In this document: positions 16,042 to 43,500 of the stretch, one piece after another
Position numbering within the stretch: the first letter of the stretch is position 1
How the letters are laid out: the number at the start of each line of letters is the position of its first letter
Assembly: GCA_948567375.1 (NCBI GenBank)
Contig: OX419757.1
Location: 28,204,732 to 28,268,731, forward strand
Reading direction: 5' to 3'
From: Lunularia cruciata
Lineage: Eukaryota; Streptophyta; Marchantiopsida; Lunulariales; Lunulariaceae
DNA: 64,000 nucleotides
Notes under the pieces: generated by a model
The model's input: the letters and a program-made list of their open reading frames with translations, nothing else
The model's database searches: none
Told to the model about the DNA's origin: nothing
Translations under genes and position numbers: made by a program

Positions 16042-17299
16042 ATGGATGCACCGGGAGGACAATTTTCCACACCTTGCTTTCCATTCCCAAATCCATTCCA
16101 CATCAATGTTATGTACATCCAGCGTGAGCAAATGAGGGTATTGCTAGTTTATCACTTTGGCGCAAAATTCATGGACATGGTGATGAACTCACCAAACCCG
16201 GTGATTCTACCTGTGGTGATATATGACAAAGAGTGGGATTTGACAATCTATATTCTACTATGATGATATGGATGTGAATGTCCCAAATTCTCTCCCTTTC
16301 AACACTCAAGTAGAAATCAGTTATGTAGTGAGACCAAAAGTGATGTTTAGAGATTTTATGGTTAGAAATTTGGCAAGGAGTATTATCAATGAGTGATAGC
16401 TTATGAGGTCCCAATGGTAGTTCTAATAGTTTGTGCGCCTTCCAGAGTGATCATATTGACTTTGTATTGAAGTAGACATTAGCAATTGAGTGTTGTAGGA
16501 CCCATGGATCCGCAATTGCAAGAGCTGGTGCAAGGAATGCAAGGGATGTTGAATGAATTTTGAGAGATTAAGATGACCATGGAGACATTACAAAGTCAAG
16601 TCATATTCTCAAGAACAATCAAGCCATGCAAGAAGAAGAGCCGTCTCAAAACCCAGTACTTGCAACTAAAGTACTTGGAGAGGCACTTGGGCCTACGAAC
16701 ATTATCAATGATGAAGCCACATTGCTACTCCGGATGAAGAAGACCTGCAACATTGAGCCTTACAAGGGGTAGCATATGATGGGAGTAGTGGAAAATTAGA
16801 TCTCGAGAATGAATTGATATTTCTGATTGTTCTCAACAGAGATCACGGAGCATGTTGCAAGTGTGTTTGCATGTGGGTACTTGACCAATAAAGCCCTCAC
16901 ATGGTATGATGCTTGGGAACAATCCATGTTGGCAGAGAGAAGGGAGGTCACGTAGACATCAATGCAAAAAGGATTTTTGAAGAATTTCCAATGGGTGGAT
17001 TCTGTGCAAATGGCTCGAACCCGACTATGGGGATTGAGACAGAAGAACAACATACAAGAGTATGTGGTGGCATTTCAAGATCTACAAGTTGCAATACCCG
17101 ACATGAGTCCAACAAAGGCTCTTGACAATTTCAAACGAGGGTTAAAGAAGCAGATTCGTCATGAAGTCATGGTGCAAAATCCTCACACGGTATTTGAAGC
17201 CATTGCTTGTGCACAGAGAATAGCAAGAGCATTGGGTGGAGGTGAAGGAGTAGTTCAACATCAACATTATCGAGCAAAAATGCCACACATGGGTGGACC
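16042..17299 (+). pseudogene. Family C leader ORF and gag (broken)
   Basis: An ATG at 16042 opens a 73-codon stretch (MDAPGGQF ... VMNSPNPVILPVVIYDKEW) also present in C3 (near 55870-55620, minus). The main gag begins with ATG at about 16504 (MDPQLQELVQGMQGM), is interrupted by stops, and continues at 16962-17299 with IRHEVMVQNPHTVFEAIACA, a helical capsid-type segment that is nearly the same in C3 (54561-54830, minus). Zinc knuckle and everything downstream are lost at the 17299/17300 junction with the family A LTR. Confidence 0.7.
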
Positions 17300-17981
17300 T
17301 GTGAGCCGGCCTATCTCTCACTCAGGATGAACCTCTGATGGCTAATATGGTAACGCACTATGGACTAAGAAGGCAAGGAACTCCAACTCCATCATACTCC
17401 TCCAAGGAAAACACTTCAAGACTCAAGACGTTGATCACTAGAGAACTCAATGAGAGAGAGATAGTTAAAAATCAAAGGATGATGAGTACCTCCTCACCCC
17501 TTGTTTATATACTAGTTACGCACCAAAGTTACTAATTACTGGAGTAACTCAAGTTACTAGGCTAAAGGTCAAGTAAAGTCAAAAATTAGAAAGGAATATC
17601 CATTCACATGGGCATATTACACTAGCATGTGATATTATCTTGACCCAACTACTAAGTCAAGGATTCCTTCATATGGGCTATCCTTGGACTAAAGAAGAAT
17701 CCAAAAAAAAAGGCTTGCGGGCCCAAGAGTTCTCAATTCTTTCCTCAAAGCCAAACTCCTAGGAATAATACCAAGTCAACACACTAGAATCCAAAATAAT
17801 GGTGCTCATCTTTTCCGCTTCCTCTAAAGTAAGGTCCCCTCTATCTTAGCTATGACTAAATCTAGCTAATCATGACTAATGTAGAACCATCATTTATCTC
17901 TATATAAATAATATCTCTCAAGTACTTGTAATACCAAGCTAAATATCACAATATCACACACATGCACAAATGGGTGTTATG
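17300..17981 (-). repeat. 3' LTR of A-minus
   Basis: On the plus strand it reads from TGTGAGCCGGCC to GGGTGTTATG. The terminal dinucleotide is altered relative to TGTAACACCC of other copies. A C-rich PPT complement, TTTACCCCCAGACT, follows at 17982-17995. Confidence 0.9.
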
Positions 17982-18029
17982 TTTACCCCCAGACTAAGTT
18001 TTCACTTTGTCCTCAAAGTGAAGGTCTCT

Positions 18030-21000
18030 CTACCTTCTATGGTACATCTTCAACTTGTCATGGTTAATCCTATCAAAGTGTCTTCCTCCCAACTCCTTGA
18101 GATCATAGGTGTAATTGCCCCATACCTTCTCCACTGTGAAAGGTCCAAAGTATTTAGGCAAAAACTTCTTTTGCACTCTCTTGAATCGATTAGAATCAAA
18201 CAACATTACCCAATCACCTTCTTTGAAAGGCTCCACCTTCTTCTTGCCTTGCCTCTTGTCATAGCTCTCCTTTTGTTTCCTTTGGGCTTGCTCTACTCAA
18301 ACCATAGCAATTGCTCTTGCCTCTTCCAACTCCATGAGTTGTTCCTTCCTTGACTTCTCGGCATCACCTCCTTGTGCTTTCTTCAATCTCCTATGAATGC
18401 TTTGGAAGGTAGGAAGATCAAAGTGAATAGGTAAGGTAGACTCAATACCATATACCAACTGAAATGGAGAATACCCGGTGGAAGTCTTCATGGTTGTCCT
18501 ATACTCCCACAAAACTACATGAATCCTCTTGTCCCAATGATGTTTAGCCTCCTCCATTTCTGCATCTTTGGCCAACATCATGCACAAAGTTTGATAGGTT
18601 CTCTCTGCCAAGCCATTGGAATTTGGCTTATAGGATGTAATTACTCTATGTGTGATAGAGAAATGTCGTAGCATGGCTGTAGTGATGCTTCATGTTAACT
18701 CTTCTCCTCTATTAGACACCAACTCCAAAGGGCATCCAAATCTAGTGATAATACGTTCATAAAGAAATCTACCAACTTCATCTTCATTCTTGTTCCTCAA
18801 TGGTCTAGCCTCAACCCACTTAGTAAGTTAATTAGTAACTACCACAATGTACCAATTGTTCCTTGGGGTTCTATTGAGAGGACCTACAAAATCAATTCCC
18901 CACTTCTCAAAAGGTCCTAGCAATGGAATTGATCTAAGTGGTGGAGTGGAAGTAGACTTTCTAGCAAAAGCTTGACAAACATGACACGTTTTCCAATAAT
19001 CAAGACAATCCTTGAAAATCCCTCTCCAATGGTAACCTGCATCTAGAATCTTGAAAGTAGTCACCTTTCATGCAAAGTGTCCTCCACATACTAAACCTTC
19101 ATGAAACTTCTTTACGAGTGAGACAGACTCTTCCTTACCCACTGCTCTTGAAGTAGACCATCTGCTCCTTGGTGAAAAAGAATATCCTCCACCATTGTGT
19201 AAGGTCTAGATCTTGCTGCAAGGGCCTTCTTCTCCCTAGCATGCATCCCTTCTCGATAGTTACCTCTTGTCACAAAATCCACAATCTCCTTGTACTCCAT
19301 TGGAACCTGTTGAGTGATTGAGATTTTCATGAGCTCTTCATCCGGGAAGGAATCATCTAGTGGCTCATCTCCATCACAATCATAGGCTCTAGATAACAAA
19401 TCAGCATTTGCATGTTTCTTTCCTGGCCTATCCTCAATGGTGTAATCATACTTAGACAAGAGTATCATCCACCTTGCTATTCTCCCTTCAACATTAGGCT
19501 TGTTGAAGATGTACTTCAAATCCTTGTGATCTGTGACAATGGTGGCTTTCCCTCCAATCAAGTAGTGTCTAAACTTCTTGAGACCAAAGATCACTACCAA
19601 CTCTTCTCTCCCCATGACAAAGTAGTTCTTTTCTGCTGAAACCATCTGCCTACTAGCATAAGCTGTTGTTTGATCATGCCCATCTTGGTCTTATTGACTA
19701 AGAGTGCATCCTATAGCTACATTAGAAGCATCAGTGTAGAGGATGAAAGGCTTACTCCAATCAGGTTTAGCAAGAATTGGAGCTACAACCAGGAATTGCT
19801 TGAGCTCCTCAAAAGCTTTGAGAGCCTCCTTGTCCTCCAAATCACCATGTAATCTACACTCTTCTTCATGTAGATGATCAATGCATAAGCCTTGTTGGAA
19901 AATGAGAAGATGAACCTCCTATAGTATCCAACCATCCCCAAGAATTGGCGTAACTTTGTCAAGCTTGAAGGGAATGGAAGGTCTGAGATTTTCCTCACCT
20001 TCTCAAGATCAATTGCTATTCCATCCTTGGAGATGATGTACCCCAAAAGTAGACCTTCTTCACATCCAAAAATGCACTTCTCTAGGTTGAGTGATGCATT
20101 TGCTTCATCCAAGCGTTGCAAGACCTTGATTAGGTGCTCAAAGTGCTCCTCCTTGCTCCCATAGACACAAAAGTCATCAATGAAGTCTCTCACAAATTTC
20201 CCAATGAAAGGTTCAAATACCTTGTTCATGAACCGTTGGAATGTGGCTGGAGCATTGCAAAGCCCAAAAGGCATGACCTTGAAAGCGTAAGTTCCCCAAG
20301 GTGTGGTGAATTGGTGAGTTGTTGATGCTCTGGTGCAATCTTGATTTGGTTATATCCACTATAACCATCTCCAAAACTATACCTCTCATGACCTACAACC
20401 TCCTCCAAGAACTCATCAATGCATGGCAATGGGTAGTAGTCGTTCTTGGTTACAGCATTGAGCTTCTTGGAATCCACACATACTCGAAGCTTGCCATTCT
20501 TTTTATTCACAATCACAATTAGAGACACCCATTCTGAATTCTCCACCTCAAATATAAATCCAACCTCCTTGAGCTTATCAAACTCCTCCTTCACAACCAA
20601 AAGATATTGGTGGGCTAATGCAACGTTGCTTTTGGCAGATTGGTCTTGCATGCAACTCCACCTCTATCTTGTGCTCCTTTAAGGTGATTTCTTTCAAATC
20701 CTTGTATCTAAAAGAAAACACATGGATGAACTTGCGGAAAATCTCCTCAAATCTCACCTTCTCCTCCTTCGTAACATTTGGACCATACTTGAGGGTAGAT
20801 AACCTTCTCTCTACCTCCTCAAGTGTCAATGGTGATTTATTTGGGTCCTTCAAAACCTTTGGCTTAGGTGCAAAATCCATAGCACAAAAACGATACACAT
20901 CTGAATTAGATTCAGATTCATCCTCCTCCGTGGAAGTCTCCTCTTCCATGCTTGTGTCCACACCTGAAGCTCATTCTTCATAATCTGATTCCCAATAATC

Positions 21001-21240
21001 AGAAGATGGTGTATCTGAATGTGAAGTGTTGGTGGTGTTAGTCACAGGAACTGTGACTCTATGGTTTGATGGCCCAATCCTCAAGTACCCTTTGTTCCAC
21101 CTATCAATTGTGCGTGCTGCTCTCAACCATGGCCTCCCAAGAAGTAAGTCATAGCTTGAATCCTTCAAGACTTGGAAAGTCATGAGATTTTGAACTCCCA
21201 TAATTGAAACTACCACCTTATCCATCACCTTACTGGTCAA
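18030..21240 (-). pseudogene. pol of A-minus: RT, RNase H, integrase (broken)
   Basis: Broken frames on the minus strand follow the A-plus polyprotein. They are the protease end with LLLGRPWLRAARTIDRW (from 21240), RT with a FIDDF catalytic motif (19783-20274), RNase H (19112-19645), an integrase zinc-binding CHVC region (18828-19064), the core with GLAERTYQT (18297-18674), and a tail, GPFTVEKVWGNYTYDLKELG (18030-18236). The tail is intact here although deleted in A-plus. A one-base loss near 20315 breaks RT. There is no chromodomain. Confidence 0.88.
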
Positions 21241-23301
21241 ACTTGTTGCTTGGTTTTCATGCTCACCACAACTGTTGAAGGTCTTGAGGGTATCATACCC
21301 AACTTCTTCATCAACCTTTCTGATATGGCATGTACTGCTGATCCTCCATCAACCAATGCATCCTTGATGTTGTGATCATTCACTCTCACATCAATCTTGG
21401 AGGCATATTCATAAGCCTCCCATGGTGTTGGCTTGGCATCCACCACTCCCATTGATACTGGAGCTTTTGCCTTCTTCTTCCCCTTACTCTTTGTAGAACT
21501 CAAACCACCTCTAAGCTCCTTTCTCAAGGTAGGGTTCAAAGCAATCAATTGGCCCATTGTGATGTTAGCCTTGTGACTACCAACATCCTCCAACACATTG
21601 TAGTTCCATTGTTGCTTTGAAATCAAGAAATCCTCCATCCCCAACTTCTTCCTTGGAGTCTTTGTTGTCGATGGTGTTGAGGTGCGAGTCCTCCTAGTAG
21701 ACATAGGAGTATCCTTGCTTGGAGTAAATCTTTGAGAAGAGTGAACATCCTCTGCAAAACAAACTCTCTTCTTCTCTTGTGCCAAAAGCTCCAAATTAAG
21801 ACCCTTGGAGTTTGAGCACTCTCCTTTCTCATACTTGCTCTCCACCACATCTATGGATGCTATCCCCTAACCTTTGTTTTGATTAGGAGCCACTTGGGTT
21901 TTACTACCTCCCTCTTTCTCTCTATTGGCTCCTTCATAACCCCTTCCTCCATGGTAAGTGGAATTTGGGTTTCCTCCATGGTAAGTTCAAAGCAATCAAT
22001 TGGCCCATTGTGATGTTAGCCTTGTGACTACCAACATCCTCCAACACATTGTAGTTCCATTGTTGCTTTGAAATCAAGAAATCCTCCATCCCCAACTTCT
22101 TCCTTGGAGTCTTTGTTGTCGATGGTGTTGAGGTGCGAGTCCTCCTAGTAGACATAGGAGTATCCTTGCTTGGAGTAAATCTTTGAGAAGAGTGAACATC
22201 CTCTGCAAAACAAACTCTCTTCTTCTCTTGTTCCAAAAGCTCCAAATTAAGACCCTTGGAGTTTGAGCACTCTCCTTTCTCATACTTGCTCTCCACCACA
22301 TCTATGGATGCTATCTCCTAACCTTTGTTTTGATTAGGAGCCACTTGGGTTTTACTACCTCCCTCTTTCTCTCTATTGGCTCCTTCATAACCCCTTCCTC
22401 CATGGTAAGTGGAATTTGGGCAATTTCTTTGGATATGGCCTCTTCCTCCACAACCAAAACAATTTCTATCATTGAAATTGTTGGCTGGTTGGCCTCCTCT
22501 ATATGGATAGTTTCTATAACTTCTAGGCCCTCTTCCTACATTCTGATCCACCTCTCTCTTCTCCCATAGTTGCACCACATTGATCTTGAGATCCGCAAGT
22601 TGTTCTGTGATGGTTTGAAGTGGATCTTTTGGTGGAGGTGCAAGAATTGGAGCAGCTACTACTTGTGGTGCAACCCTTGCCACCAAACTTCAGAAGTTCC
22701 ACCATACTTGTAACCTTGAGGAGGATGCACAACCTCCTTCACCACCAAACCACTCTCATCCCCTCACAACTCTCCTCCATACGAATTGTGATCTTGATAC
22801 CTTCAACCTTGGAAGAAGGTTTCTCATATCTCACCTTGCTTCTAATTTGTGGTCTCAACCCTCCCACAAAATTCTTGGTGAGCATGGCTCCTATGCCAAT
22901 CATAGTAGTCTCCACATCATCCCACCCTTCCTCAACACTATGTGAAATCTGGACTCTAACTTTTCCACTCTTTCTACATAAACTCTCACTTTCTCTCCAT
23001 CTCCTTGTTTGAGAAAGGTAACCTCACTCATCAATCTCTCATAACTCTTATCTGGGAGAAATTTCTCAATGAGTGTTGAAGTCAAACTCTCCCAAGACTC
23101 TTCTTCCCCATCTCTCCTCTCTCTCTTTTGGTATTCTGACTCATACCATGTAAGTGTTGCATCCTCAAAGAAATCTGGTAATAATGAGGCCCACTCATTC
23201 TTCCTCCTATCATTGTTTCCTATGAAAACTCTCTTGAAGTCTCTCACAAAGGCCTCCACATCTTCTCCATCCTTGCCAAAGAAAACCGGAAGTTTCCTCA
23301 T
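21237..23301 (-). pseudogene. gag and protease start of A-minus (broken)
   Basis: ATG at 23301 (MRKLPVFFGKDGEDVEAF). A missing G near 22925 shifts the frame. The zinc knuckle CFGCGGRGHIQRNC lies at about 22430-22475. The spacer after it is tandemly duplicated (451 bp). The protease begins with VDGGSAVHAISERL (about 21360-21310) and stops at TGA right after KTKQQV, at the same codon as in A-plus; a one-base loss just after it also shifts the frame here. Confidence 0.88.
21535..22436 (-). repeat. 451-bp tandem duplication in gag
   Basis: 21535-21985 and 21986-22436 are near-identical copies; the start TTCAAAGCAATCAATTGG recurs 451 bp later and CCATGGTAAGTGGAATTTGG closes both. A-plus has one copy. 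451 is not a multiple of three, so the duplication breaks gag. Confidence 0.9.
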
Positions 23302-23544
23302 CTTAACCCTTCATTATCTTTCTTTCTCTCAAATTTTTTTTCTTTTTTTTTCTTTTCTCTCACTCTGTAACTAATAGAGTATGTACATGACTAACACCAT
23401 TTGAGAGTAATACACCCTAGGGAACACAAAAGGCTTAGTTTGCTCCAAGATTTCTATAGCAACATCAAATCCCAGAGTGCATATTAATCAGAACTCTCAT
23501 GGATAGTTTATCCATAAGTTGAAAGATTATCTCCATCACTAATC

Positions 23545-24204
23545 TTAAGAACTAGCTGATGAAAGTGGTAGTATTTCTGTAGCTGTACTAAGACTCTCTC
23601 CAAGATCCTTCACCAAAGTACCCAAAAGTAATTTTACTCTACTAAACTCATGTCCTTTTGGAAGTCCTTCAACTCCACAAACCTCACACACGTCCTTGGT
23701 CTTAGAGCTTCTCCCTCCCAATCTTGGTGAAGAAGGTCCAGCATGCAAACCCAAGTCAAGTAAGCCTCTCCTTTCTCTCAATCTCTTGCTCTCAAAGGTC
23801 AATGGACATGACCTTGCCTTATGTCCCTTCTCTCCACATAGAAAGCACTTGGACTCACGCTCTCCTCCAAGTGGTTTAGGTTTTTGGATCCTCTCAACAC
23901 TCTCTTCAAATTCTATTGTAAACTCTCTTTTCCTCAAATCCACCCCTCCAATCACCTCAAACCCTTTGGAAGCTTGCATAGTCTCAATTTCCACTCTTGA
24001 TGACACTCCATATTCCCAAGATGAATTTAAACACTCAAATATGCTTTTTGTTGCTCTCAAACTCCTCATGCATGAGCTCTCAACTCTGCAGAATTGACCC
24101 TTCCTCACAATTTCACTCAAATCTCTTAACTCAAATGTGACAGTCCTCTGAAATTTTTCACACTTGATCACAACTCCAGGGAGTCCCTCCCTGAAAAGTT
24201 TCAA
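23545..24204 (-). pseudogene. Extra zinc-knuckle ORF upstream of gag, A-minus
   Basis: 219 open codons between PBS and gag, opened by a stop and a TTG, so the true start lies further upstream in now-broken leader sequence. About residues 120-133 form a perfect CX2CX4HX4C knuckle (CFLCGEKGHKARSC); a second cysteine pair (CEVCGVEG) follows about 45 residues later. It is separate from the gag knuckle. Tat/Ogre-type plant gypsy elements are known to carry an additional ORF before gag, but I do not know one with this knuckle. The function is unknown; nucleic-acid binding is inferred. The homologous A-plus region is 38041-38701. Confidence 0.75.
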
Positions 24205-24658
24205 ATCTTTTCATCAAGCTATTTGTCCTATACATCTTTCCATTCAGCACACATATTTTAGATTTGGTCTGAAAACCACCCCCCTCACTTCAAAAACCCA
24301 TAACTTCCTCAGTAAGACTTTTCTCTCTCTAATTTTTGTGGCAAAACTTAGGATACAATGAACTGAATTGTCTTGAAAAGTTTCAGGACAATCCACCGGA
24401 AATTGAATAAATAGCTAACTCTATACAATTTTCCAGAGAGCATTCAGTTGCGGGAGCAGTTTACCCTATCAAGTTTCAAAAAATCTAGCCCAGTGCGCAG
24501 AGTAACTCTCACAATAATTTTAAGTGTTCTATTTGAAGGATAACCCAAGATATCATGTGTAGAAATTTTGAGTCTAGATCTTAAACTTGAGATTTTGCCC
24601 AAAATCACCTTAATTCCCAAAATCTACAATCCACCTCACACAACCTCTCCAATTCCTC

Positions 24659-24829
24659 TCATGTGTACAAGATATAAAAAATCACTTCAAAGACATCATA
24701 ATGAACTACAGGGTATAAAAATGGATCTTGGTTCTCTAATATAAGTTCAGCCCTCTCCTCTCCTAATGTTCTCTCCAAGTGAGCTCTCATAGCCTCCTTT
24801 TGCCTAATGTAGAATTGAAAGCGGAACAT
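24659..24829 (-). pseudogene. 56-codon leader ORF after the PBS, A-minus
   Basis: ATG at 24829, TGA at 24661-24659, encoding MFRFQFYIRQKEAMRAHLER and on to FYILYT. The same ORF with the same stop is in A-plus (37410-37580). It could be the intact start of the extra ORF or a regulatory uORF. Confidence 0.6.
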
Positions 24830-24847
24830 TATTTTGCCTTCTAGAGA

Positions 24848-24869
24848 GGTCCCGGCAACGGAACCAAAA
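24848..24869 (-). promoter_or_regulatory. Primer-binding site of A-minus
   Basis: On the minus strand, TTTTGGTTCCGTTGCCGGGA directly follows the LTR terminus. It resembles the tRNA-Asp PBS (TGGCGCCGTCGCCGGGGA) used by many plant Tat/Athila-type elements. Confidence 0.7.
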
Positions 24870-25560
24870 TGTGAGCCGGCCTATCTCTCACTTAGGATGA
24901 ACCTCTGATGGCTATTATGGTAATGCACCATGGACTAAGAAGGCAAGGAACCCCAACTCCATCATACTCCTCCAAGGCTAACAATTCAAGACTCAAGACA
25001 TTGCTCACTAGAGAACTCAATGAGAGAGAGATAGTTGCAAATCAAAGGATGATGAGTACCTCCTCACCCCTTAATTATATACTTGGAAATAGTTACACAC
25101 CAAAGTTACTTATTACCGTGGTAACTCAAGTTACTAGACTAAAAGTCAAGTAAAGTCAAAAATTAGAAAGGAATATCTATTCACATGGGCATATTCCCCT
25201 AAGCATGTGATCTTATCTTGATCTAACTACTAAGTCAAGGATTCCTTCACATGGGCTATCCTTGGACTATAGAAGAATCCAAAACAAAAAGGCTTGCGGG
25301 CCCAAGAGTTCTCAACTCTTTCCTCAAAGCCAAACACCTAGGAATAATACCAAGTCAACACACTAGAATCCAAAATAGTGGTGCTCATCTTTTCCACTTC
25401 CTCTAAAGTAAGGTCCCCTTTATCTTAGCTATGACTAACTTTAGCTAATCATGACTAATGTAGAACTATCCTTTATCTTTATATAAATAATATCTCTCAA
25501 GTACTTGTAATACCAAGCTAAATATCACAATACCACACACATGCACAAATGGGTGTTATA
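24870..25560 (-). repeat. 5' LTR of A-minus
   Basis: On the minus strand it starts TATAACACCC (25560; other copies TGTAACACCC) and ends GGCTCACA at 24870. It retains the CACATGCTTAG segment that both LTRs of A-plus lack. Confidence 0.9.
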
Positions 25561-25915
25561 GGTCAAGATAAGATCATATGCTTAGTGGAATATGCCCATG
25601 AGAATAGATATTCATTTATTCTTTTTGACTTTACTTGACTTTTAGCCTTGTAACTTGAGTTATTGTGGTAAATAGTAACTTTAGTGCATAACTATTTCAC
25701 AAGTACATAAACAAGGGGTGAGGAAGTACTCATTATACTTTCATTTGCAATTATTTCTCTCTCATTGAGTTCTCTAGTGAGCAATGTCTTGAGTCTTGGA
25801 GTGTTAGCCTTGGAGGAGTATGATGGAGTTGGGGTTTTTTTCCTTCTTAGTCCATTGTATGCTACCATAATAGCCATTAGAGGTTCATCCTAAGTGAGAG
25901 ACAGGCTGGCTCACA
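25561..25915 (+). repeat. Right half of a family A LTR
   Basis: Plus-oriented A LTR sequence from GGTCAAGATAAG to GGCTCACA, abutting the U3 end of the minus-strand A LTR. The breakpoint is the same LTR position as at 44437. Element D resumes at 25916. Confidence 0.88.
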
Positions 25916-27394
25916 GATCCTACTAGTTGGGACATGGGTTTCTACTCAACCCATCTGCATCACTCCACGTTTGTGAATAATCTGGAATCATACTCTTGTA
26001 AAATTAAAGCTCATTGTGCAAGCTTCCCTTAAATCTGGTCAGAATCCATCAACCACTTTAATAGCTAATGATCAGTGATGGGAGTAAAAGGGTTGCCAAA
26101 TAGGTAATATCAGAAATGTGCTACTGTCCATACTGCTACCAATCACTCTCCCTCGTATGAATTATACTTCACCTTTGCTAAATTGTTGGAGCAACTAGCA
26201 TAGGTCACCATGAACTCCTTTCCCTCATTGTCATGTTGGGTGAGCACTGCTCCCAGCCCTATCAAACTCCAATCAATGTGAACCTGAAATTGTCTTCCTC
26301 TAATCGGTCTCCTCAAAATAGGAGCAAATGCCAACCTCTACTTGAGCTCTACAAAATCTTTCTCTTGCTCATCTCCCCAACACCACTCTTGTGTAAGTAT
26401 GGTCAGCTTCATCAAGGCCTTGGCAATGGCACTCAATCTTCTAACATAGCCGGCAATAGAAGATTGCCAACCCAAGGAATGCTCGCACTCTACTCACATC
26501 CGTAGGCCAGGAATATGCACAATAGCCTCCACCTTGGTCTACTAAACACCAAGTCCTCTAGGGTAGATAGTGTGACCCAAATACTCAACCTGCTCATGGA
26601 AGAACCTACACTTCTCAAGATGTAATTTGAGTCCATGAGATCTCAACCTCTCAAATACCTCAAAAGACTATCTCTCATACTATATATGCACAATAGTATT
26701 ATAACCCAAAATGTCATCAATATAGCATTGAGCAAAATCCAATCCAGCCAGGATCCTATCTATGACTCTCTGGAACTCACCAAGAGCGTTATTTAACCAA
26801 AATGGTAAGAACCTCTACTAATATAACACATCCTTGCCATGAGGATCAATAGCCCAAAATGTTGTCTTGGACTTATCTTCCTCCTTGATTGGCAACTAAT
26901 TATATCTTGCTTGAAGATCCAAAGTACTAAAGAGCTTTGCATGCTCAATTGCATCAAAGATCTCCTTTGGTGTAGGCATGGCATACCAATCAGCCCTAGT
27001 CTATCATTAATAAGACAAAAGTATCCACACATCTGCCTATTTTTGTAAGTGCCATGCATATCCTTCTTGGCTGGCATCACTATAGCTGATGCATACTCTT
27101 CATGTGAAATCTCTACCAAACCAACTTCAAAAAGGTCTCTACTCTGGCTCTCTGAATCAATGCTCTCTCTATGTCATTATATTGATAGGGATGTTGGAAA
27201 ATTGGTGTTTTGCTAGTCAGCTCAATTTGTATCCCAGGTCCCCTCAGAGCACCCAAATCCTTCATATTGAAGGTAAAACAACTCATATAGCTCCTCAAAA
27301 ACCTCCAAACTCTCCATCTTTCCTCTCTTGTAAGCTTAGGTCCAAGATTTGGCTCCCAAGTATCCTTTGTAATTGTCATAGGAGTGGAAGACAT
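25916..27394 (-). pseudogene. RT and RNase H of element D (broken)
   Basis: Reading from 27394: WEPNLGPKLTREERWRVW, then HEEYASAIVMPAKKD (RT start), LDLQARYNQ, the catalytic CYIDDI at about 26713-26727, HLEKCRFFHEQVEYLGH, then RNase H with PILRRPI, VHIDWSLIGLGAVLTQ, and YNSYEGE. It ends beyond a WALILQEYD phrase near 25990, just before the LTR half at 25915. Frames change several times and Gln-to-stop type changes are common. Integrase is not present. Confidence 0.82.
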
Positions 27395-27658
27395 ATTGAC
27401 AGGCTGCTACATTGGGCCCTTGGGAGAAATAGTGTCATGCTCCCAACCGCTAGATGTTCCAACCTCAGTGGGAAAAACTCCCTCCACTGTGGCTACAAGC
27501 TCCTTACATCCTCTAGCTGCATCCCAAGTAGACTAAGGGTGTAATCCAAGTAGACCATGTTCACTTGGATGGACTCCAAGTAGACCACTCTCCCTAGTAG
27601 CCACTAGCTATGTCCCAAGAATACACTGTCCACTCTGTCCATCACCCCCAACATGTGC

Positions 27659-28830
27659 CTAAATTGTCTCATTAGGCATAGAGCTCACAAGTGTCCAACT
27701 GGTAATCCCTATCAAGTGCATCATGTGTTGCTCTGCCCAGCCAAGGCTTACAATCCAGGTTAAATAGTTCAGGTCCATAGCCTGACCTAATACTTGATGT
27801 CTGGATGCCTCTAACACTATTGGAATAGTGGTAATACTAGCACAAAAACCAATTGCCCACTCTCTCTCATCGGTGTTGGGCTCCACCAACTACTATAACT
27901 ATAAGTCCCAAACCAATCCAAGACCTCTCTCTCAAAAAAGATGAAAGCTTGGAAAACTCATGAGTGTGGGAAAAGCGGCTCTAAGCTATCCAACTAGGTT
28001 CACCATTGCCATAGATGACCTATCAACCACTACCACCATTTGAGATTGATACCCAAAATCCAAGATGTCATCAACAAGAAGGTGGTCAAGTTGTTGAATC
28101 CCATCATAAGCATGTTGTAGAACCTCTCTAAGTAAGAGGTTTGTCCACCAAAGACAAAGACAATGAGCCCGTGATCCCACTTTGGTTGCATTTAATAACA
28201 CTGCAGGTCCCATCCAAGAATGGTCATGATGCATACTCACCACCACACAAGTATGAGAATCACCCATCACAAGGACATTCTCCAAAATGTAAGCTGGAGA
28301 AACAGATTGATGAACCTGGAGATGTTGTAGTATCCATAACATCTCCGTAAACACACCAGAATGGGAATCCTGAAGACCCAAACCTTGGCTAGCACATATA
28401 TGTCCTTGACGTGGCCATCCAAAAATCACCAAATGAATGGAACCATGTCTCTCCAAATCCTACTCCCCCAACAAGGAAATATTTTTTGGTAGGATCTTCT
28501 AATCAAGTTGATTAGGCGTATTAACAACAATATAGTAAAATAGAGTAATGAAGTTGGGATTTGTCCCAAAAAATGCTATGAATACCATTATCAATTGCCA
28601 TCAATACAGATAAGTCTTGACTATTGACATTGATAATAACTTAGGATATTGATAGGCCAAGTGTGCCACATGAGATAAAGAGACTAGCCTAGCAGTCTCA
28701 TCTCTCTCCACATACAAGTACCCCGAGTACTTGTATACCTGCCTATAGTACCGTAGCTAGACCAGTGCTAATCCTACCGAACAACTCTAATAGACATACT
28801 CCCTCTATTGGATATTGCCAAGCAATGAGT
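27659..28830 (-). pseudogene. C5-cytosine DNA methyltransferase domain of element D (broken)
   Basis: Motif I (SAM binding) is CLLELFGRISTGLATVL at about 28745-28797. Motif IV is VIFGWPRQGH at about 28397-28426, where the catalytic Cys of PCQ is Arg (CGT at 28409-28411). It is followed by GLQDSHSGVFTEML. Motif VI is YILENV with ENV at 28274-28282. Motif VIII is AHCLCLWWTNLL (28130-28168), where family members usually have Arg residues. Motifs IX/X are DEREWAIGF (about 27850-27876) and SRHQVLGQAMDLNYLTWI (about 27750-27805). The order is canonical (I-IV-VI-VIII-X), as in bacterial and DNMT3-type enzymes and unlike the rearranged plant DRM. The domain lies in line between protease and RT, so it was part of the pol polyprotein. 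In life it would have methylated cytosines, perhaps in the element's own DNA; that is inference. The segment between motifs I and IV (28.46-28.74 kb) is heavily frameshifted. Confidence 0.85.
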
Positions 28831-29129
28831 GTGGTATCTAGAGGTGTCAAGTAATCTACTCTAGAGGCTTATCCTCACACTTATTGCCTAGTGGTACAAA
28901 GGCTCCACTCCAAGCCTATTGCACCAACCAATCTGCATGTTGCTGTAATGCCACCTTTGAACTCCAAAATGAACATCCAAGGTGGATGGAACAATCCCAC
29001 TTGTACTCCAAATCTGAGTGATCTCCTCTCCAATAAATCTAGTACTAGAGTATCTTTTGTATGTGCATTCCTCCAATAAATCACCAGGCCAAGTACCAAC
29101 ACCATTGAAAGCTAAAACTAATGTTGTTA

Positions 29130-29640
29130 TGGTCTTGGACTATAGTGAGCCAAGACTACCACTATTGAAGCATAATGGTAGGCGCTATACTTGTCCCTCA
29201 CCTGATTCATCCCCAACCTGGTCTATAGGAGGTTATCTTGTCCCAATAGTCAATATTGAAACCCATAGGGTATAACATTGCTCCCCCAACTAACACATCA
29301 TATGACTTACTACTATCGCAATGGCTTGAGCTCTCACCACAAAGCTATCAGTCAGATGAGCAGGCTGAATTTGAACAACAAGCTCTCCACATGCAATGTA
29401 CTATGTAGAACCACTACCTAGAGATGTCTGGATCTGAAATGGACACCTCTCCACATCAGTCTTTTGTAACTCTAGACCAACAATTGTAGCCTTCTCTAAC
29501 ATAAAGGGTTGCATACCAAAGTCTAGTAAGACCCTCTATGGTGTATAGACCTTCCTTGAAGGTCCCACCAAACAAAAAATCTCCCTCTAGTTATCCAATA
29601 GGACAACCTTAGGTGTAAACCATGCTTGCTCAAAGGCCGG
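29130..29640 (-). pseudogene. Aspartic protease region of element D (broken)
   Basis: RVLLDFGMQPFMLEKATIVG at about 29475-29535 corresponds to the retropepsin LLD(S/T)GA motif, with the Ser/Thr after Asp replaced by Phe. Downstream, LRxx-type beta strands with stops lead toward 29.1 kb. An embedded frame, 28881-29105, then links to the methyltransferase. The exact end of the protease is uncertain. Confidence 0.55.
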
Positions 29641-30459
29641 TCTAGTTGGTAACTCCTCCAATCTAACCACTATTGCCTACTAACCATTGGTTGTTGAGCG
29701 GATCCCATGCTCCTCAACCAAGTCAGCTCCAATATCAACCAGCTCTAGTCTAGTAGTAGGGACCACATCATCCCTACTCTCACAAACTATGGCAGCCAAC
29801 CGGAATACTAGGGTTGGGTCAACTTCCACTATAAACATATCACTAATTGAGAATAATGGAAAGCACATAATCAATTGAGCCGCCCCCATCATTGTGTTAG
29901 ACTCAATCTATGTAGTAGTAGGTGGTTGACTAGTAGGTATTCCATCATGCATCTCATCACCACCTACCACACCTACATCAGGATATGTAGGAGCCATGGA
30001 TGTCATCTGTAGTGCTTTAAAGAGTGTAAAAGACTAGGGAAGTCTGACTTGTCTACCAGCCTCTCCTCTTTGTGGGTCCAACTCCATTGATGCTCCTCTA
30101 GGCTCTTAAGCATGTACTACACTTCTAGATACTAGGGTAAATGCATCCACTTGTGCTACTCTGCACATGAAATCCAAGATATCTCTATCACCAGTATATG
30201 AGGTGGAAGCCTCAACACCCAAACTTGATCTCTTCTAAGCTATGGCCATGCTAGCCAATCTCTGCTCCAACTACTCACTCCGAGTAGTCATGACTATATC
30301 AAAAGTAAGGGCAAGTACTACATCCCTACTAAGTGTGGATCCTCTACCACCTGCCATAGCAACTCTACCACTCCATAACTTTGGGTGAAGGTCAGAGCAT
30401 CGATCACCAGTGTGACCAAATTTGTATCAATGCTCACACTATCTCTATGTTGGCTGTGA

Positions 30460-31610
30460 TGCACTAGAGGTATTAGGTTTGTTGCCCTAAGTGCACTCTC
30501 TCTTATGGTGAGGTCCACCACAAGTCCAACAAGGACCACTACCACTCATTGGCTATTGTTGACCAAAAAATGAAGGTAAGGATCTAGCTACAATAGGCAC
30601 TCCACTCACTCCATAGGATTTGGGCTATCCACCTTGTCATTGGAAACCAACATGGTGTGGTGTACTCCCTGAGAAGTAACAACCGTGGATGAGATCTCCC
30701 TACCAAATCCAGATGTCATTCCTCTCTCCTCCACCATGTTGAGCTCAATATGCTCAGCCAAACCAAAGACCACTACCAAAGTAGGTGAAGTAGCTTATAA
30801 CAACATAGCATCACGGACTCTACATTGCAACTCCTTGTCCAATATCCCATACCAAGACTAGACTGCTTGGGCCTTAGTTATTCCCTGAGTAAAATTGATT
30901 AGCCATCCCATGCAAGTATATGCCTCAAGTAAGCTCTCTCCGGCCTTCCATTCAAAGCTCCTCAACTTGTCCATCCACACTTCTTGGTAGTTTTGCCTCA
31001 AACACTAGAAGAACTCCATCATAGAGTTAAACCCATGTACTAAACCATCTCTTGTAGTAGTACCATCTCCAAGAGAAACACCAATGCTAATAGAGCTAAA
31101 ACTCATGGGTACTGCCAATCTACCCCTAGAAACCAAGCCTAAAGTAATGAAGACATAATTTGAAGACCAATATTGTCTCCAAAGCCCAATCTCCTCCAAG
31201 TGAGCTCTCTTAAACTCATGGTAGTCATCTATCAATGGACCCTCTAAGTGCTAAGATAACCCCTTCCATGCCATGATGGGAGTGAACAAAGTTGGGTTCC
31301 ACATCTAGTGTAGATCACACCAACTATCAAGCTCTTGGATGAAGTCATCCAACTCAATGGTACCCACTATACTAGAGTAACGTCTAGGACCTTTGGAGAC
31401 CCCATAAATCTTATCCATTTCCCTTAGCAACGGCGCATACACACCAAGTGCGCTCTCAATTGAATCAGCTCGTGTGCCAAACTCCAGCTCAGAGTCAATC
31501 TTCTTCCTCAATAGGACTTGAGATATTGGCTACTATCAAGCACCACTCTAAGTAAACCCACTATGTATTGCAATGTTATCTCCTCCAAAATCCCCAAAGA
31601 ACTCCATCAT
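30460..31610 (-). pseudogene. gag of element D with CCHC knuckle (broken)
   Basis: The start is probably an ATG-ATG-GAG near 31600 (MMEFFGDFGGDNIAIHSG). It continues with PRRYSSIVGTIELDDFIQEL (31305-31511), YHEFKRAHLEEIGLWRQYW (31005-31235) and a capsid-like helical region to about 30700. A zinc knuckle CWTCGGPHHKREC at 30493-30531 has the CX2CX3HX4C spacing seen in several gypsy gags. Stops interrupt each part. Confidence 0.7.
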
Positions 31611-36688: not shown

Positions 36689-37368
36689 TGTAACACCCAT
36701 TTGTGCATGTGTGTGGTATTGTGATATTTGGCTTGGTATTACAAGTACTTAAGAGATATTATTTATATAGAGATAAAGGATGGTTCTATATTAGTCATGG
36801 TTAGCTAAAGTTAGTCATAGCTAAGATAGATAGGACCTTACTTTAGAGGAAGTAGAAAAGATGAGCACCACTATTTTGGATTTTAGTGTGTTGACTTGGT
36901 ATTATTCCTATGTGTTTGGCTTTGGGGAAAGAGTTGAGAACTCTTGGGCCCGCAAGCCTTTTTGTTTTGGATTTTTCTTAAGTCCAAGGATAGCCCATGT
37001 GAAGGAATCCTTGCTTTAGTGGTTGGGTCAAGATAAGGGGAATATGCCCATGTGAATGGATATTCCTTTCTACTTTTTGACTTTATTTGACTTTTAGTCC
37101 AGTAACTTGAGTTACTACGGTAATTAGTAACTTTGGTACGTAACTATTTCACAAGTATATAAACAAGGGGTGAGGAAGTACTCATCATCTTTTTCATTTG
37201 CAACTATCTCTCTCTCATTGAGTTCTCTAGTGAGCAATGACTTGAGTCTTGGAGTGTTAGCCTTGGAGGAGTATGATGGAGTTGGGGTTCCTTGTCTTCT
37301 TAGTCCATGGTGCGCTACCATAATAACCATCAGAGGTTCATCCTGAGTGAGAGACAGGCCGGCTCACA
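36689..37368 (+). repeat. 5' LTR of A-plus
   Basis: TGTAACACCC to GGCTCACA, 680 bp. A TATA box TATATAAA at 37156-37163 lies about 210 bp before the LTR end. Confidence 0.95.
37156..37163 (+). promoter_or_regulatory. TATA box of A-plus 5' LTR
   Basis: TATATAAA in the sequence CACAAGTATATAAACAAGG; the matching position in other A LTRs is conserved or nearly so. Transcription would start about 25-35 bp downstream. Confidence 0.6.
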
Positions 37369-37390
37369 TTTTTGGTTCCGTTGCCGGGAT
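37369..37390 (+). promoter_or_regulatory. Primer-binding site of A-plus
   Basis: TTTTTGGTTCCGTTGCCGGG follows the LTR terminus; tRNA-Asp-like with two or three mismatches. Confidence 0.7.
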
Positions 37391-37409
37391 CTCTCTAGAA
37401 GGCAAGATA

Positions 37410-37580
37410 ATGTTCCGCGTCCAATTCTACATTAGGCAGAAGGAGGCTATGAGAGCTCACTTGGAGAGAACATTAGGAGAGGAGAGGGCTGAACTTATGT
37501 TAGAGAACCAAGATCCATTTGTATACCCTGTAGTTCATTATGATGTCTTTGAGGTGATTTTGTACATCTTGTACACATGA
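37410..37580 (+). pseudogene. 56-codon leader ORF, A-plus
   Basis: ATG at 37410 just after the PBS, ending TGA at 37578-37580; same length and stop as in A-minus (24659-24829). About eight base differences between copies, roughly half changing the residue, so no strong sign of constraint. In-frame sequence after the stop (EELERLCEVDCRFWGL) also looks protein-like in both copies, suggesting the ORF was once longer. Confidence 0.6.
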
Positions 37581-38701
37581 GAGGAATTGGAGAGATTGTG
37601 TGAGGTGGATTGCAGATTTTGGGGATTAAGGTGATTTTGGGCAAAATCTCAAGTTTGAGATCTGGACTTGAGATTTCTACACATGATAGCTTGGGTTATC
37701 TTTCAGTTAGCACATTTGAAATCATTGTGAGAGCTTCTATGCGCACTGGGCTAGAATTTTTGAAAGTTGATAGGGTAAAGTGCTCCCGCAACTGCATGCT
37801 CTCTGGAAAATTGTATAGAGTCTGCCATTTCTTCAATTTTCAGTAAATTTTCCTGAAAATTTCCAAGAAAATTAAGTGCATTGTATCCTACCTGTTGCCA
37901 CAAAAATTAGAGAAAGATTGTTCTTGCGCAAGGAGAAATGAGTTTTTGAAGTGAGGGGGGTGGTTTTCAGACCAAATCTGAAATTTGTGTACTGAATAGA
38001 AAGGTGTCCAGGCAAAATGGCTCGATGAAAAGATCTGAAATTTTGCAGGGAGCGATATCATGGAGCTGTGATCAAGTGTGTTAAATTTCAGAGGACTATG
38101 ACATACTAGTTGGGAGATTTGAGTGATATTGTGAGGAAGGGTCAATTCTGCAGAGTGGAGATCTCATGCATGAGGAGTTTGAGATCAACAAAAAGCATGT
38201 TTGAGTGTTTAGATTCATCTTGGGAACATGGAGGGTCATCAAGAGTGGAAATTGAGATTATGCAAGGTTCCCCAAGGGTTTGAGGTGATTGTAGGGGTGG
38301 ATTTGAGGAAAAGAGAGTTTACAATAGAATTTGAAGAGAGTGTCGAGAGGATCTAAAAACCTACACCACTTGGAGGAAAGAGTGAGTCTAAGTGCTTTCT
38401 ATGTGGAGAGAAGGGACATAAGGCAAGTTCATGTCCATTGACCTTTGAGAGCAAGAGATTGAGGAAAAGGAGAGGCTTACTTGACTTGGGTTTGCATGTT
38501 GGACCTTCTTCACCAAGATTGGGAGGGAGAAGATCTAAGACCAAGGAGTTGTGTGAGGTTTGTGGAGTTGAAGGACTTCCAAAAGGACATGAGTGTAGTG
38601 GAGTAAAATCACTTTTGGAGACTGTGGTGAAGGATCTTGGAGAGAGTTTTAGTACAACTACAGAAATACTACCACCTTCATCAGCTAGTTCTCAAGATTA
38701 G
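37581..38701 (+). pseudogene. Extra zinc-knuckle ORF upstream of gag, A-plus (broken)
   Basis: The leader reads as broken coding sequence: KISSLRSGLEISTHDSLGYL near 37640-37690, then stops. From about 38041 it aligns with the 219-codon frame of A-minus. The knuckle CFLCGEKGHKASSC is at 38393-38434, followed by CEVCGVEGLPKGHEC (about 38551-38595), where this copy keeps a final Cys lost in A-minus. It ends TAG at 38699-38701. Its place before gag resembles the additional ORF of Tat/Ogre elements. Confidence 0.7.
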
Positions 38702-38932
38702 TGATAGAGATAATCTTTCAACTTATGGATAAACTATCCATGAGAGTTAGAATAATATGCACTCTAGGATTTGATGTTGCTATAGAAATCTTGGAGCAAC
38801 CTGAAACTTTTGTGTTCCCTAGAGTGGATTATTCTCAGATGGTGTTAGTCATGTATATACTCTATTAGTAATAGAGTGAGAGAAAAGAAAAGAAAAAATT
38901 TTGAGAGAAAAGAAAGATAGTGAGGGGTTAAG

Positions 38933-40519
38933 ATGGGGAAACTTCCGGTTTTCTTTGGCAAGGATGGAGAAGATGTGGAGGCCTTTGTGAGAGACTTCAA
39001 GAGAGCTTGCATAGGAAACAATGAGTGGGCCTCATTATTACCAGATTTCTTTGAGGATGCAGCACTTACATGGTATGAGTAAGAATACCAAAAGAGAGAG
39101 AGGAGAGAGGGGGAAGAGGAGTCTTGGGAGACTTTGACTTCAGCACTCATTGAGAACTTTCTTCCTGATGAGAGTTATGAGAGATTGATGAGTGATGTTA
39201 CATTTCTACAGCAAGGAGATGGAGAGAAAGTGAGGGTCTATGTGGAAAGAGTGGAAAAGTTGGAGTCCAGATTTCGCATAGTGTTGAGGAAGGGTGGGGA
39301 TGATGTGGAGACTACAATGATTGGCATAGGGGCCATGCTCACCAAGAATTTTGTGGGAGGATTGAGACCACAAATTAGAAGCAAGGTGAGATATGAGAAA
39401 CCTTCTTCCAAGGTTGAAGCTATCAAGATCACAATTCGTATGGAGGAGAGTTTGGAAGGGGATGAGAGTGATTTGGTGGTGAAGGAGGTTGTGCATCCTC
39501 CTCAAGGCTACAAGTATGGTGGAACTTCTGATACTTTGGTGACAAGGGTTGCACCACAAGTAGTAGTTGCTCCAGTTCTTGCACCTCCACCAAAAGATCC
39601 ACTCCAAACCATCACAGAACAACTTGCGGATCTCAAGATCAATGTGGTGCAACTATGGGAGAAGAGAGAGGTGGATCAGAATGTAGGGAGAGGGCCTAGG
39701 AGTTATGGAAACTATCCATATAGAGGAGGCCAACCAGCCAACAATTTCAATGATAGAAATTGTTTTGGTTGTGGAGGAAGAGGCCATATCCAAAGGAATT
39801 GCCCAAATTCCACTTACCATGGAGGAAGGGGTTATGAGGGAGGTAGTGAAACCCAAGTGGCTCCTAATCCCAACAAAGGTAAGGGGATAGCATCCATAGA
39901 TGTGGTTGAGAGCAAGTATGAGAAAGGAGAGTGCTCAAACTCCAAGGGTCTTAATTTGGAGCTTTTGGCACAAGAGAAGAAGAGAGCTCGTTTTGCAGAG
40001 GATGTTCACTCTTCTCAAGGATTTACTTCAAGCAAGGATACTCCTATGTCTACTAGGAGCACTCGCACCTCAACACCATCAACAACAAAGACTCCAAGGA
40101 AGAAGTTGGGGATGGAGGACTTCTTGATCTCAAAGCAACAATGGAACTACAATGTGTTGGAAGATGTTGGTAATCACAAGGCTAACATCACAGTGGGCCA
40201 ATTAATTGCTTTGAACCCTACCTTGAGAAAGGAGCTTAGAGGTGGTTTGAGTTCTACAAGGAGCAAGAAGAAGAAGAAGAAGAAGGCAAAAGTTCCAGTA
40301 TCAATGGGGGTGGTGGATGCCAAGCCAGCACCATGGGAGGCTTGTGAATATGCCTCCAAGATTGATGTGAGAATGAATGGTCACAACATCAAGGATGCAT
40401 TGGTTGATGGAGGATCAGCAGTGAATGCCATGTCAGAAAGGTTGATGAAGAAGTTGGGTATGATACCCTCAAGACCTTCAACATTTGTGGTGAGCATGGC
40501 AAACAAGCAACAAGTTTGA
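38933..40519 (+). pseudogene. gag and protease start of A-plus
   Basis: ATG at 38933 (MGKLPVFFGKDGEDVEAF). A TAA at 39080-39082 replaces the Ser codon of A-minus (TWYES). Relative to A-minus, 15 bp are lost near 39023 between AATGA direct repeats. The frame is then open to 40519. The zinc knuckle CFGCGGRGHIQRNC is at about 39762-39803. A Ser/Thr/Lys-rich spacer follows, then retropepsin DALVDGGSAVNAMSERL near 40394-40444. The frame ends at TGA (40517-40519) after ANKQQV, inside the protease domain, with the rest of the protease in the same frame beyond it. Confidence 0.92.
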
Positions 40520-43500
40520 CCAGTAGGGGTGATGGATAAGGTGGTAGTTTCAATTATGGGAGTTCAAAATCTCATGACTTTCCAAGTCTTGAAGGATTCA
40601 AGCTATGACTTACTTCTTGGGAGGCCATGGTTGAGAGCAGCACGCACAATTGATAGGTGGAACAAAGGGTACTTGAGGATTGGGCCATCAAACCATAGAG
40701 TCACAATTCCTGTGACTAACACCACCAACACTTCACATTCAGATACATCATCTTCTGATTATTGGGAATCAGATGCTGAAGAAGGAGCTTCAGGTGTGGA
40801 CACAAGCATGGAAGAGGAGACTTCCACGGAGGAGGATGAATCTGAATCTGATTCCGATGTGTATCCTTTGTGTGCTATGGATTTTGCACCTAAGCCAGAG
40901 GTTTTGAAGGACCCAGATAAATCACCATTGACACTTGAGGAGGTAGAGAGAAGGTTATCTACCCTCAAGTATGGCCCAAATGTTACCAAGGAGGAGAAGG
41001 TGAGATTTGAGGAGATTTTCCGCAAGTTCATCCATGTGTTTGCTTTTAGTTACAAGGATTTGAAGGAAGTCACCTTGGAGGAGCACAAGATAGAGGTGGA
41101 GTCACATGCAAGACCAATCCGCCAAAAGCAACGTCGCATTAGCCCACCAATATCTTTGGTTGTGAAGGAGGAGATTGATAAGCTCAAGGAGGCTGGATTT
41201 ATCTTTGAGGTGGAGAATTTAGAATGGGTGTCTCCAATTATCATTGTGAAGAAAAAGAATGGCAAGCTTCGGGTATGTGTGGATTACAAGAAGCTCAATG
41301 CTGTTACCAAGAAGGACTACTACCCATTGCCATTCATTGATGAGATCTTGGAGGAGGTTGCAGGTCATGAGAGGTACAGTTTTGGAGATGGTTATAGTGG
41401 ATATAACCAAATCAAGATTGCACCAGAGCATCAACAACTCACCACATTCACCACACCTTGGGGAACTTACGCTTTCAAGGTCATGCCTTTTGGGCTTTGC
41501 AATGCTCCAGCCACATTCCAACGGTTCATGAACAAGGTATTTGAACCTTTCATTGGGAAATTTGTGAGAGATTTCATTGATGACTTTTGTGTCTATGGGA
41601 GCAAGGAGGAGCACTTTGAGCACCTAATCAAAGTCTTGCAACGCTTGGATGAGGCAAATGCATCACTCAACCCAGAGAAGTGCATTTTTGGATGTGAAGA
41701 ATGTCTACTTTTGGGGCATATCATCTCCAAGGATGGAATAGCAGTTGATCCTGAGAAGGTGAGGAAAATCTCAGACCTTCCATTCCCTTCAAGCTTGACA
41801 AAGTTACGCCAATTCTTGGGGATGGTTGGGTACTATAGGAGGTTCATCTTCTCATTTTCCAACAAGGCTTATGCATTGACCATCTACATGAAGAAGGGTG
41901 TAGATTACATGGTGATTTTGGAAGACAAGGAGGCTCTCAAAGCTTTTGAGGAGCTCAAGCAATCCCTTGTTGTAGCTCCAATTCTTGCTAAACCTGATTG
42001 GAGTAAACCTTTCATCCTCTACACTGATGCTTCTAATGTAGCTATAGGATGCACTCTTAGTCAATTAGACCAAGATGGGCATGATCATCCAATAGCTTAT
42101 GCTAGTAGGCAGATGGTTTCAGCAGAGAAGAACTACTCTGTCACGGAGAGAGAAGGGTTGGCAGTGATCTTTGGTCTGAAGAAGTTTAGACACTACTTGA
42201 TTGGAGGGAAAGCCACCATTGTCATGGATCACAAGGCTTTGAAGTACATCTTCAACAAGCCTAATGTTGAAGGGAGACTAGCAAGGTGGATGATACTCTT
42301 GTCTGAGTATGACTACACCATTGAAGATAGACCAGGAAAGAAACATGCAAATGCTGATTTATTATCTAGAGCCTATGATCATTATGGAGATGAGCCAGTG
42401 GATGATTCCTTCCCGGATGAGGAGCTCATGACAATCTCAGTCACTCAAGAGGTTCCAATGGAGAACAAGGAGATTGTGGATTTTGTGACAAAAGGTAACT
42501 ATCCAGAAGGGATGCATGCTAGGGAGAGGAAGGCCCTTGCAGCAAGATCTAGACCTTACACAATGGTGGAGGATATTCTTTTTCACCAAGGAGCAGATGG
42601 TCTACTTCGAAGAGCAGTGGGTAAGGAAGAGTCTATCCTACTCATAAAGGAGTTTCATGAAGGTTTAGTATGTGGAGGACACTTTGCAGGAAAGGTGACT
42701 GCTTTCAAGATTCTAGATGCAGGTTACCATTGGAGAGGGATTTTCAAGGATTGTCTTGATTATTGCAAAACTTGTCATGTTTGTCAAGCTTTTGCTAGAA
42801 AGTCTACATCCACTCCACCACTTAGATCAATTCCATTGCTAGGACCTTTTGAGAAGTGGGGAATTGATTTTGTAGGTCCTCTCAATAGAACCCCAAGGAA
42901 CAATCGGTACATTGTGGTAGTTACTGATTACCTTACCAAGTGGGTTGAGGCTAGACCATTGAGGGACAAGAATGAAGATGAAGTGGGTAGATTTCTTTAT
43001 GAACGCATTATCACTAGGTTTGGATGCCCTTTGGAGTTGGTTTCTGATAGAGGAGGAGAGTTTATAGGAAGCATTACTACAGCCATGCTACGACATTTCT
43101 CTATCACACATAGAGTAACTACATCCTATAAGCCAAATTCCAATGGCTTGGCAGAGAGAACCAATCAGACCTTGTGCATGATGTTGGCCAAAGATGCAGA
43201 AATGGAGGGGGCTAAACATCATTGGGACAAGAGGATTCATGCAGTTTTGTGGGAGTATAGGACAACCATGAAAACTTCCACTGGATATTCTCCACTTCAA
43301 TTGGTGTATGGTATTGAGTCTACCTTACCTATTCACTTTGATCTTCCTACCTTCCAAAGCATTCATAGGAGATTGAAGAAAGCACAAGGAGGTGATGCAG
43401 AGAAGTCAAGGAAGGATCAACTCATGGAGTTGGAAGAGGCAAGAGCAGTTGCTATGGTTCAAGTGGAGCAAGCCCAAAGGAAACAAAAGAAGAGCTATGA

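Follow-up and report, generated by a model that had tools for sequence, protein, structure and literature searches.

Cytosine methylation is a main weapon of plants against retrotransposons, so an element that has an enzyme of this kind inverts the usual picture. Retrotransposons carrying a DNA methyltransferase (DNMT) have been described in dinoflagellates, together with a Gypsy element carrying Dnmt3 in Klebsormidium (de Mendoza et al. 2018, PMC5890265). In the account available there, KnitGypsy-Dnmt3 of Klebsormidium nitens is an LTR Gypsy element with a DNMT3-class enzyme inside the Pol frame and motifs in unpermuted order, and SymbioDIRS-Dnmt3 of Symbiodinium combines a DNMT3-class domain with a DIRS retrotransposon. 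A 2025 survey of DNMTs (PMC12344493) cites de Mendoza et al. for streptophytes and dinoflagellates and, in its available text, names Copia and DIRS elements. The main text of PMC5890265 does not contain the terms moss, Marchantia, Sphagnum or liverwort; its tree held bryophyte Dnmt3 sequences. One paper on the Marchantia methylome lists host methyltransferases, five in number, from the MET, CMT and DRM classes (PMC5784723), and the accessible portions of that paper, PMC6453930 and PMC9998398 contain no further case of a DNMT-bearing retrotransposon.

The element described here lies in a 64-kb window, by which we mean the whole stretch of DNA analysed, and belongs to a family that shares with KnitGypsy-Dnmt3 the LTR Gypsy type, the DNMT3-class enzyme inside the Pol frame and the unpermuted motifs (PMC5890265, as far as its available text describes the element). 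The hosts differ, being a charophyte in the published case and bryophytes plus a chlorophyte in ours. In the present family the DNMT comes after the protease in some members and after RNase H in others. No sequence named Klebsormidium occurs among the relatives we retrieved. SymbioDIRS-Dnmt3 is alike in having a DNMT3-class domain in a retrotransposon, but it is a DIRS element of a dinoflagellate and is described in the available text as an independent acquisition (PMC5890265). The closest comparison within the window is an ordinary Ty3/gypsy element at 36689-44440, which has gag, protease, reverse transcriptase (RT), RNase H and integrase of gypsy type but no convincing DNMT match between protease and RT. 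No published land-plant or chlorophyte case was found in the full-text collection searched, from which bioRxiv and most subscription journals are absent. DNMT-bearing retrotransposons are already known from dinoflagellates and Klebsormidium; the bryophyte and chlorophyte hosts are new within the literature searched.

The decayed element and its methyltransferase domain

The minus strand from 31418 to 25932 carries a decayed Ty3/gypsy element in the order gag, zinc knuckle/protease region, C5-cytosine methyltransferase, RT and RNase H. Its parts are as follows.

30684..31418, minus strand: gag remnant (tblastn of Marchantia P0073 residues 1-253, 56% identity)
28972..30588, minus strand: zinc-knuckle and protease region (tblastn of P0073 residues 286-819)
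29592-29171, minus strand: retropepsin, split over two frames (protease profile from relatives, E 7.4e-17 and 2e-13)
27719..28805, minus strand: decayed C5-cytosine methyltransferase domain of predicted DNMT3 type (profile of relatives and homologues)
28403..28420, minus strand: motif IV GWPRQG, with Arg at the catalytic Cys position (alignment with relatives)
27437..27718, minus strand: tail of the methyltransferase frame, linker to RT (the P0073 tblastn match stops, at residue 1271, at 27437)
26497..27358, minus strand: reverse transcriptase in several frames (PF00078 at 4.8e-16 in piece 26952-26497; tblastn of P0076)
25932..26358, minus strand: RNase H, the last element part seen (PF17919 at 1.4e-20, PF17917 at 3e-20; profile match 26358-25990; tblastn to 25932)

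RT and RNase H of this copy give direct Pfam matches in the raw pieces; gag and retropepsin were recognised through relatives. At its 3’ end the copy adjoins a neighbouring LTR that belongs to a different element, for which the match runs to 25919 (about 25.92 kb). A profile search of the window found no integrase beside it, and the relatives’ own integrases did no better as queries; the window does contain integrase matches in four regions, around 18.9, 42.8, 50.8 and 59.8 kb, all of them away from the DNMT element. No flanking LTR pair was found. The window copy is an old, dead, 3’-truncated Ty3/gypsy copy, and we read the missing integrase as part of that truncation. We regard the anatomy set out above as very nearly certain.

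The original prediction had named a series of methyltransferase motifs on the minus strand, and a reading of the frames confirms that they are present in the order claimed. LELFGRISTG lies in the frame read over 28805-28701; the open piece 28459-27986, which at 157 amino acids is the longest of the domain, holds GWPRQGH, GLQDSHSG, YILENV and AHCLCLWWTNLL; DEREWAIGF and VLGQAMDLNYLTWI follow downstream in the frame of that piece, past in-frame stops. The numbering of these peptides as motifs I, IV, VI, VIII and IX/X is that of the original prediction.

Recognising the domain with general resources proved less direct. One of the two Pfam families proposed as a check, PF00078 for RT, was found; the other, the methylase family PF00145, had no match in the raw pieces, and neither Pfam (E up to 1) nor NCBIfam nor the PDB returned a methylase for the raw pieces of the window. 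Read literally, this is the lack of a significant DNA_methylase match that was to count against the prediction, yet a decayed copy calls for a more sensitive test: frame changes, stops and Arg at the catalytic Cys position leave this one so broken that Pfam misses the methylase in its raw pieces. That no methylase exists here, as the empty raw-piece searches would have it, we reject, since relatives bridge the gap: one raw frame of 247 amino acids, with X at the stops, gave 70 protein matches, the strongest of which (E 4.5e-82) is 58% identical across 98% of the query. Named proteins among them come from Sphagnum troendelagicum, S. jensenii, Calypogeia fissa, Marchantia paleacea, M. polymorpha and Riccia sorocarpa; several of the matching proteins carry precomputed PF00145, and relatives 58% identical are among these carriers.

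A profile built from the relatives matches 28531-27719 at 310.7 bits, with weaker N-terminal pieces at 28805-28674 and 28783-28598. With a second profile, made from 69 relatives with the window excluded, the DNMT region scores 303.5 bits, as against a maximum of 1.7 bits in 100 dinucleotide shuffles, by which chance motifs are rejected, and a maximum of 4.9 bits in 47 other 1.3-kb pieces of the window. The central claim of the prediction, a C5-cytosine methyltransferase domain inside a gypsy element between protease and RT, is borne out, and the same linkage occurs in other species.

The state of the domain is another matter. Its match is spread over more than one frame, with in-frame stops; the catalytic Cys of motif IV is replaced by Arg, the Glu of motif VI is retained, and motif VIII has Cys at both Arg positions. 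Given the frame changes, the stops and the Arg in place of the catalytic Cys, the window copy must be inactive, and the suggestion that the element could methylate its own or host DNA fails for this copy. It keeps 55 of the 74 columns that are at least 80% conserved in the relatives, and in six of the 19 changed columns an Arg has become Trp, Cys, His or Gln. The observed/expected ratio of CpG is 0.12 over the DNMT element, 0.14 in each of two other elements and 0.23 in a third; it is 0.28 for the whole window and 0.95 in the gene-like frame 3977-5824. This loss of CpG in the elements of the window resembles that of methylated DNA. CpG loss and Arg changes together suggest that the window copy was long methylated, with no indication of the enzyme responsible.

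Relatives of the element and placement of the domain

Searches for long relatives, in which the DNMT part alone was scored against candidates of about 620-2511 amino acids, yielded 54 proteins (P0071-P0124); stand-alone short methyltransferases were excluded by design from both of these searches. Because the proteins were retrieved through the DNMT, its presence in them is a matter of construction, and the neighbouring domains are the finding. The protease precedes the DNMT in 39 of the 54 (type A), including proteins of Marchantia polymorpha, Calypogeia fissa and Sphagnum fallax. Behind the DNMT of these 39 there is nothing in 28, RT in 10, and RNase H with integrase in one. In 13 of the 54 the order is RT-RNase H-DNMT (type B), two of the 13 being named Haematococcus lacustris; an integrase and a PHD finger follow the DNMT in 12 of these, and a protease is included in only two. 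Two further members of the 54 are DNMT-integrase-PHD fragments. By name the set comprises 12 proteins of M. polymorpha, one of C. fissa, one of S. fallax and two of H. lacustris, the other 38 having no species label.

Relatives do have the integrase that is lacking beside the window copy, P0103 and P0081 among them; in P0103 a single frame of 2352 amino acids encodes zinc knuckle, protease, methylase, RT, RNase H and integrase. Several Marchantia protein models are marked as partial, and some look like annotation joins across the boundary between DNMT and RT. As 28 proteins stop after the DNMT, we infer that the bryophyte-group element has two frames, gag-PR-DNMT and RT-RH-INT. Among 19 relatives scanned by Pfam at thresholds of 0.1 or 0.01, PF00145 was found in 12 (E 2.2e-12 to 3.5e-6) and had no match in seven (P0077, P0079, P0081, P0014, P0037, P0119 and P0114). 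The domain is almost certainly an integral part of this element family. With members in Marchantia, Riccia, Calypogeia and Sphagnum, the range of such elements extends to land plants, as anticipated in the event of a land-plant host. Proteins P0109-P0121, P0123 and P0124 represent a second kind of DNMT-bearing gypsy element, with the DNMT placed after RNase H and a PHD finger placed after the integrase.

Trees of the RT and of the DNMT were built from the 124 proteins fetched, with omission from both of those whose longest domain match was under 190 amino acids. The 22-row RT tree places the window piece with Marchantia P0076 and P0107 at 100/99. The DNMT tree holds 63 of 70 rows, seven having been dropped by hand: P0122, P0111, P0123 and P0124 for long branches, and P0005, P0009 and P0018 as partial or near-duplicate. 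There the window falls in a 24-row set, supported at 98/92, with that tree’s Marchantia rows, Calypogeia and Sphagnum troendelagicum; its branch is long (0.59), as expected from decay, so that its exact place within the tree is unsure. Its position among bryophyte elements points to a bryophyte, or failing that some other land plant, as the most probable host, horizontal transfer or a host from an unsampled group being lesser possibilities. Type B proteins form a single clade in the DNMT tree (100/99) and a single group in the RT tree (73/100); in the full 70-row DNMT set the RNase H-DNMT group needs three label changes, with the unlabelled fragments P0123 and P0124 inside it. Both trees are without an outside methyltransferase as root, and are therefore compatible both with a single capture and a later change of place and with separate captures of two related enzymes.

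Class of the methyltransferase and its possible role

Searched against the PDB, a profile of 52 relatives ranks DNMT3A (72.5 bits), DNMT3C (67.5) and DNMT3B (59.5) above chain 4onj (37.9), HaeIII (32.9) and HhaI (30.4), and neither DNMT1 nor CMT is named among the best 60 of 88 sequences. DNMT3A also comes top with a 17-relative profile, at 51.9 bits (56 sequences). The structure predicted for relative P0003 from a 52-row alignment has a mean pLDDT of 89.6 and a pTM of 0.88; an earlier model from 17 rows was set aside at a pLDDT of 45.4. Compared with the PDB, the best 50 of the 1110 matches of the P0003 model (E up to 10) are all DNMT3A, 3B or 3C, some of them complexes with DNMT3L, with TM-scores by target length up to 0.84 among these 50. 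Judged by profile and by the predicted fold of a relative, the domain is of DNMT3 type.

The residues expected of a working enzyme are conserved in the relatives that cover each site: the catalytic Cys in 58 of 59, the Glu of motif VI (ENV) in 68 of 69, and the two Args of motif VIII in 65 of 69 and 67 of 68. Immediately before the catalytic Cys, 45 of 60 relatives have P, 12 have E and three have S. The form with E, GWECQ, is found in P0102, P0103, P0105, P0106 and most type B proteins; to our knowledge an E at this position is unusual for C5 methyltransferases. Chain 4onj carries the title ‘DNA methyltransferase’ and is presumably a DRM. Plant DRM methyltransferases are likewise related to DNMT3, and both DRM2 and 4onj match our profiles weakly (19-38 bits). 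They differ in their rearranged motifs, as noted in the available text of PMC5890265, and DNMT3A scores about twice their bits. In our family motif I comes first and motif X last, which means that the domain is not rearranged in the manner of DRM.

It is possible to outline how such an enzyme might serve its element. In live copies of the bryophyte group the methyltransferase would be made joined to Gag and protease, then cut free and packed into the particle with the genomic RNA. An enzyme so joined would be expected in the particle, where new cDNA would be the nearest substrate. It may then methylate cytosines de novo, probably at CG, on the new cDNA or at the insertion site, and the new copy would bear host-like marks or be quiet enough to be tolerated. 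The available text of the 2018 study offers a precedent, in that the SymbioDIRS DNMT3 introduced de novo CG methylation when tested in yeast, and the authors suggest cDNA as the target; KnitGypsy-Dnmt3 had no activity in yeast, and human DNMT3B was likewise silent in the same assay (PMC5890265). We predict that the enzyme of live copies is probably active, and we consider the anatomy and a working enzyme, taken jointly, to be quite likely. That the enzyme acts mainly on the element’s own cDNA is a tentative proposal.

Other readings of the locus and of the domain have to be weighed against this one. The linkage could be local, with a host DNMT pseudogene or a chance insertion lying within or next to a gypsy element of the usual kind; in favour of this, no LTR pair marks off the degenerate window copy, whose borders can therefore not be demonstrated. 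A local pseudogene is nevertheless rejected on the recurring order of domains in the relatives, with the protease before the DNMT in the 39 long relatives that include Marchantia, Calypogeia and Sphagnum. The RT and DNMT of the window moreover both group with bryophyte members, and we consider a local origin of the linkage extremely improbable. Derivation of the domain from a bacterial or viral methylase, rather than a eukaryotic DNMT3, might seem indicated by the PCQ of motif IV in most relatives, as against PCN in DNMT3A, and by the presence of HhaI and HaeIII among the profile matches. DNMT3A nonetheless scores more than twice the bits of either, the best 50 of 1110 structural matches are all DNMT3 entries, and two scans of viral contigs recovered no relative. 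The PDB profile ranking and the structural matches lead us to reject a bacterial origin, and a bacterial or viral source altogether appears unlikely.

More evenly poised is the question of substrate. The domain may have been kept for something other than cDNA, namely host chromatin near insertions, competing elements, or RNA that is methylated or only bound. The PHD finger in 12 of the 13 RNase H-DNMT-integrase elements would fit a role at chromatin or the insertion site, RNA was discussed for the SymbioLINE enzyme by the 2018 authors in the available text (PMC5890265), and the lack of DNA methylation by KnitGypsy-Dnmt3 in yeast points the same way, subject to the silence of human DNMT3B there. 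Against this, the predicted fold is of DNMT3 type and not that of a tRNA methylase, DNMT2 scoring 23-25 bits and DNMT3A 52-73; and the bryophyte-type enzyme, joined to Gag and protease, would be in the particle with the cDNA. A substrate other than cDNA is a real possibility, if a somewhat doubtful one.

Relatives of the DNMT element with open reading frames occur in liverworts, peat moss and a green alga, and mobile DNA with a methyltransferase seems to occur across a wider range of green organisms than the searched literature reports. We put forward, as a proposition whose chances we judge to be slightly short of balanced, that DNMT gypsy elements are an old lineage of green organisms, from chlorophytes to land plants, whose DNMT3-type enzyme has persisted across deep divergence as a functional central part at no fewer than two positions: fused with Gag and protease or, in elements that have a PHD finger, lying between RNase H and integrase. 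Such elements are predicted to methylate their own DNA in their life cycle. This is testable in copies of Marchantia polymorpha. Marchantia polymorpha is a genetic model plant with good tools, and its relatives of the element with long open frames provide a model in which to ask why the element keeps a methyltransferase. Several relatives carry database names such as DNA (cytosine-5-)-methyltransferase, and gene tallies and phylogenies of bryophyte and algal DNMTs may include genes of elements along with those of the host.

Surroundings in the window

A search of the whole window with Rfam gave nothing at gathering scores. The frame at 3977-5824 is open for 615 amino acids, with a GC content of 0.50 and a CpG observed/expected ratio that stands apart from that of the window (0.95 vs 0.28); it has no Pfam match at E 0.01 and is probably an exon of a host gene. 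Two gypsy elements of one family, at 36689-44440 and 17296-25561, flank the DNMT element in opposite orientation and are 91-93% identical over most of their length. The element at 36.7-44.4 kb has two long open frames, of 478 and 1004 amino acids, with gag, protease, RT, RNase H and integrase. A second related pair in opposite orientation, at 46647-52247 and 58272-63936, is about 77-80% identical and carries decayed gypsy-type matches to RT, RNase H and integrase.
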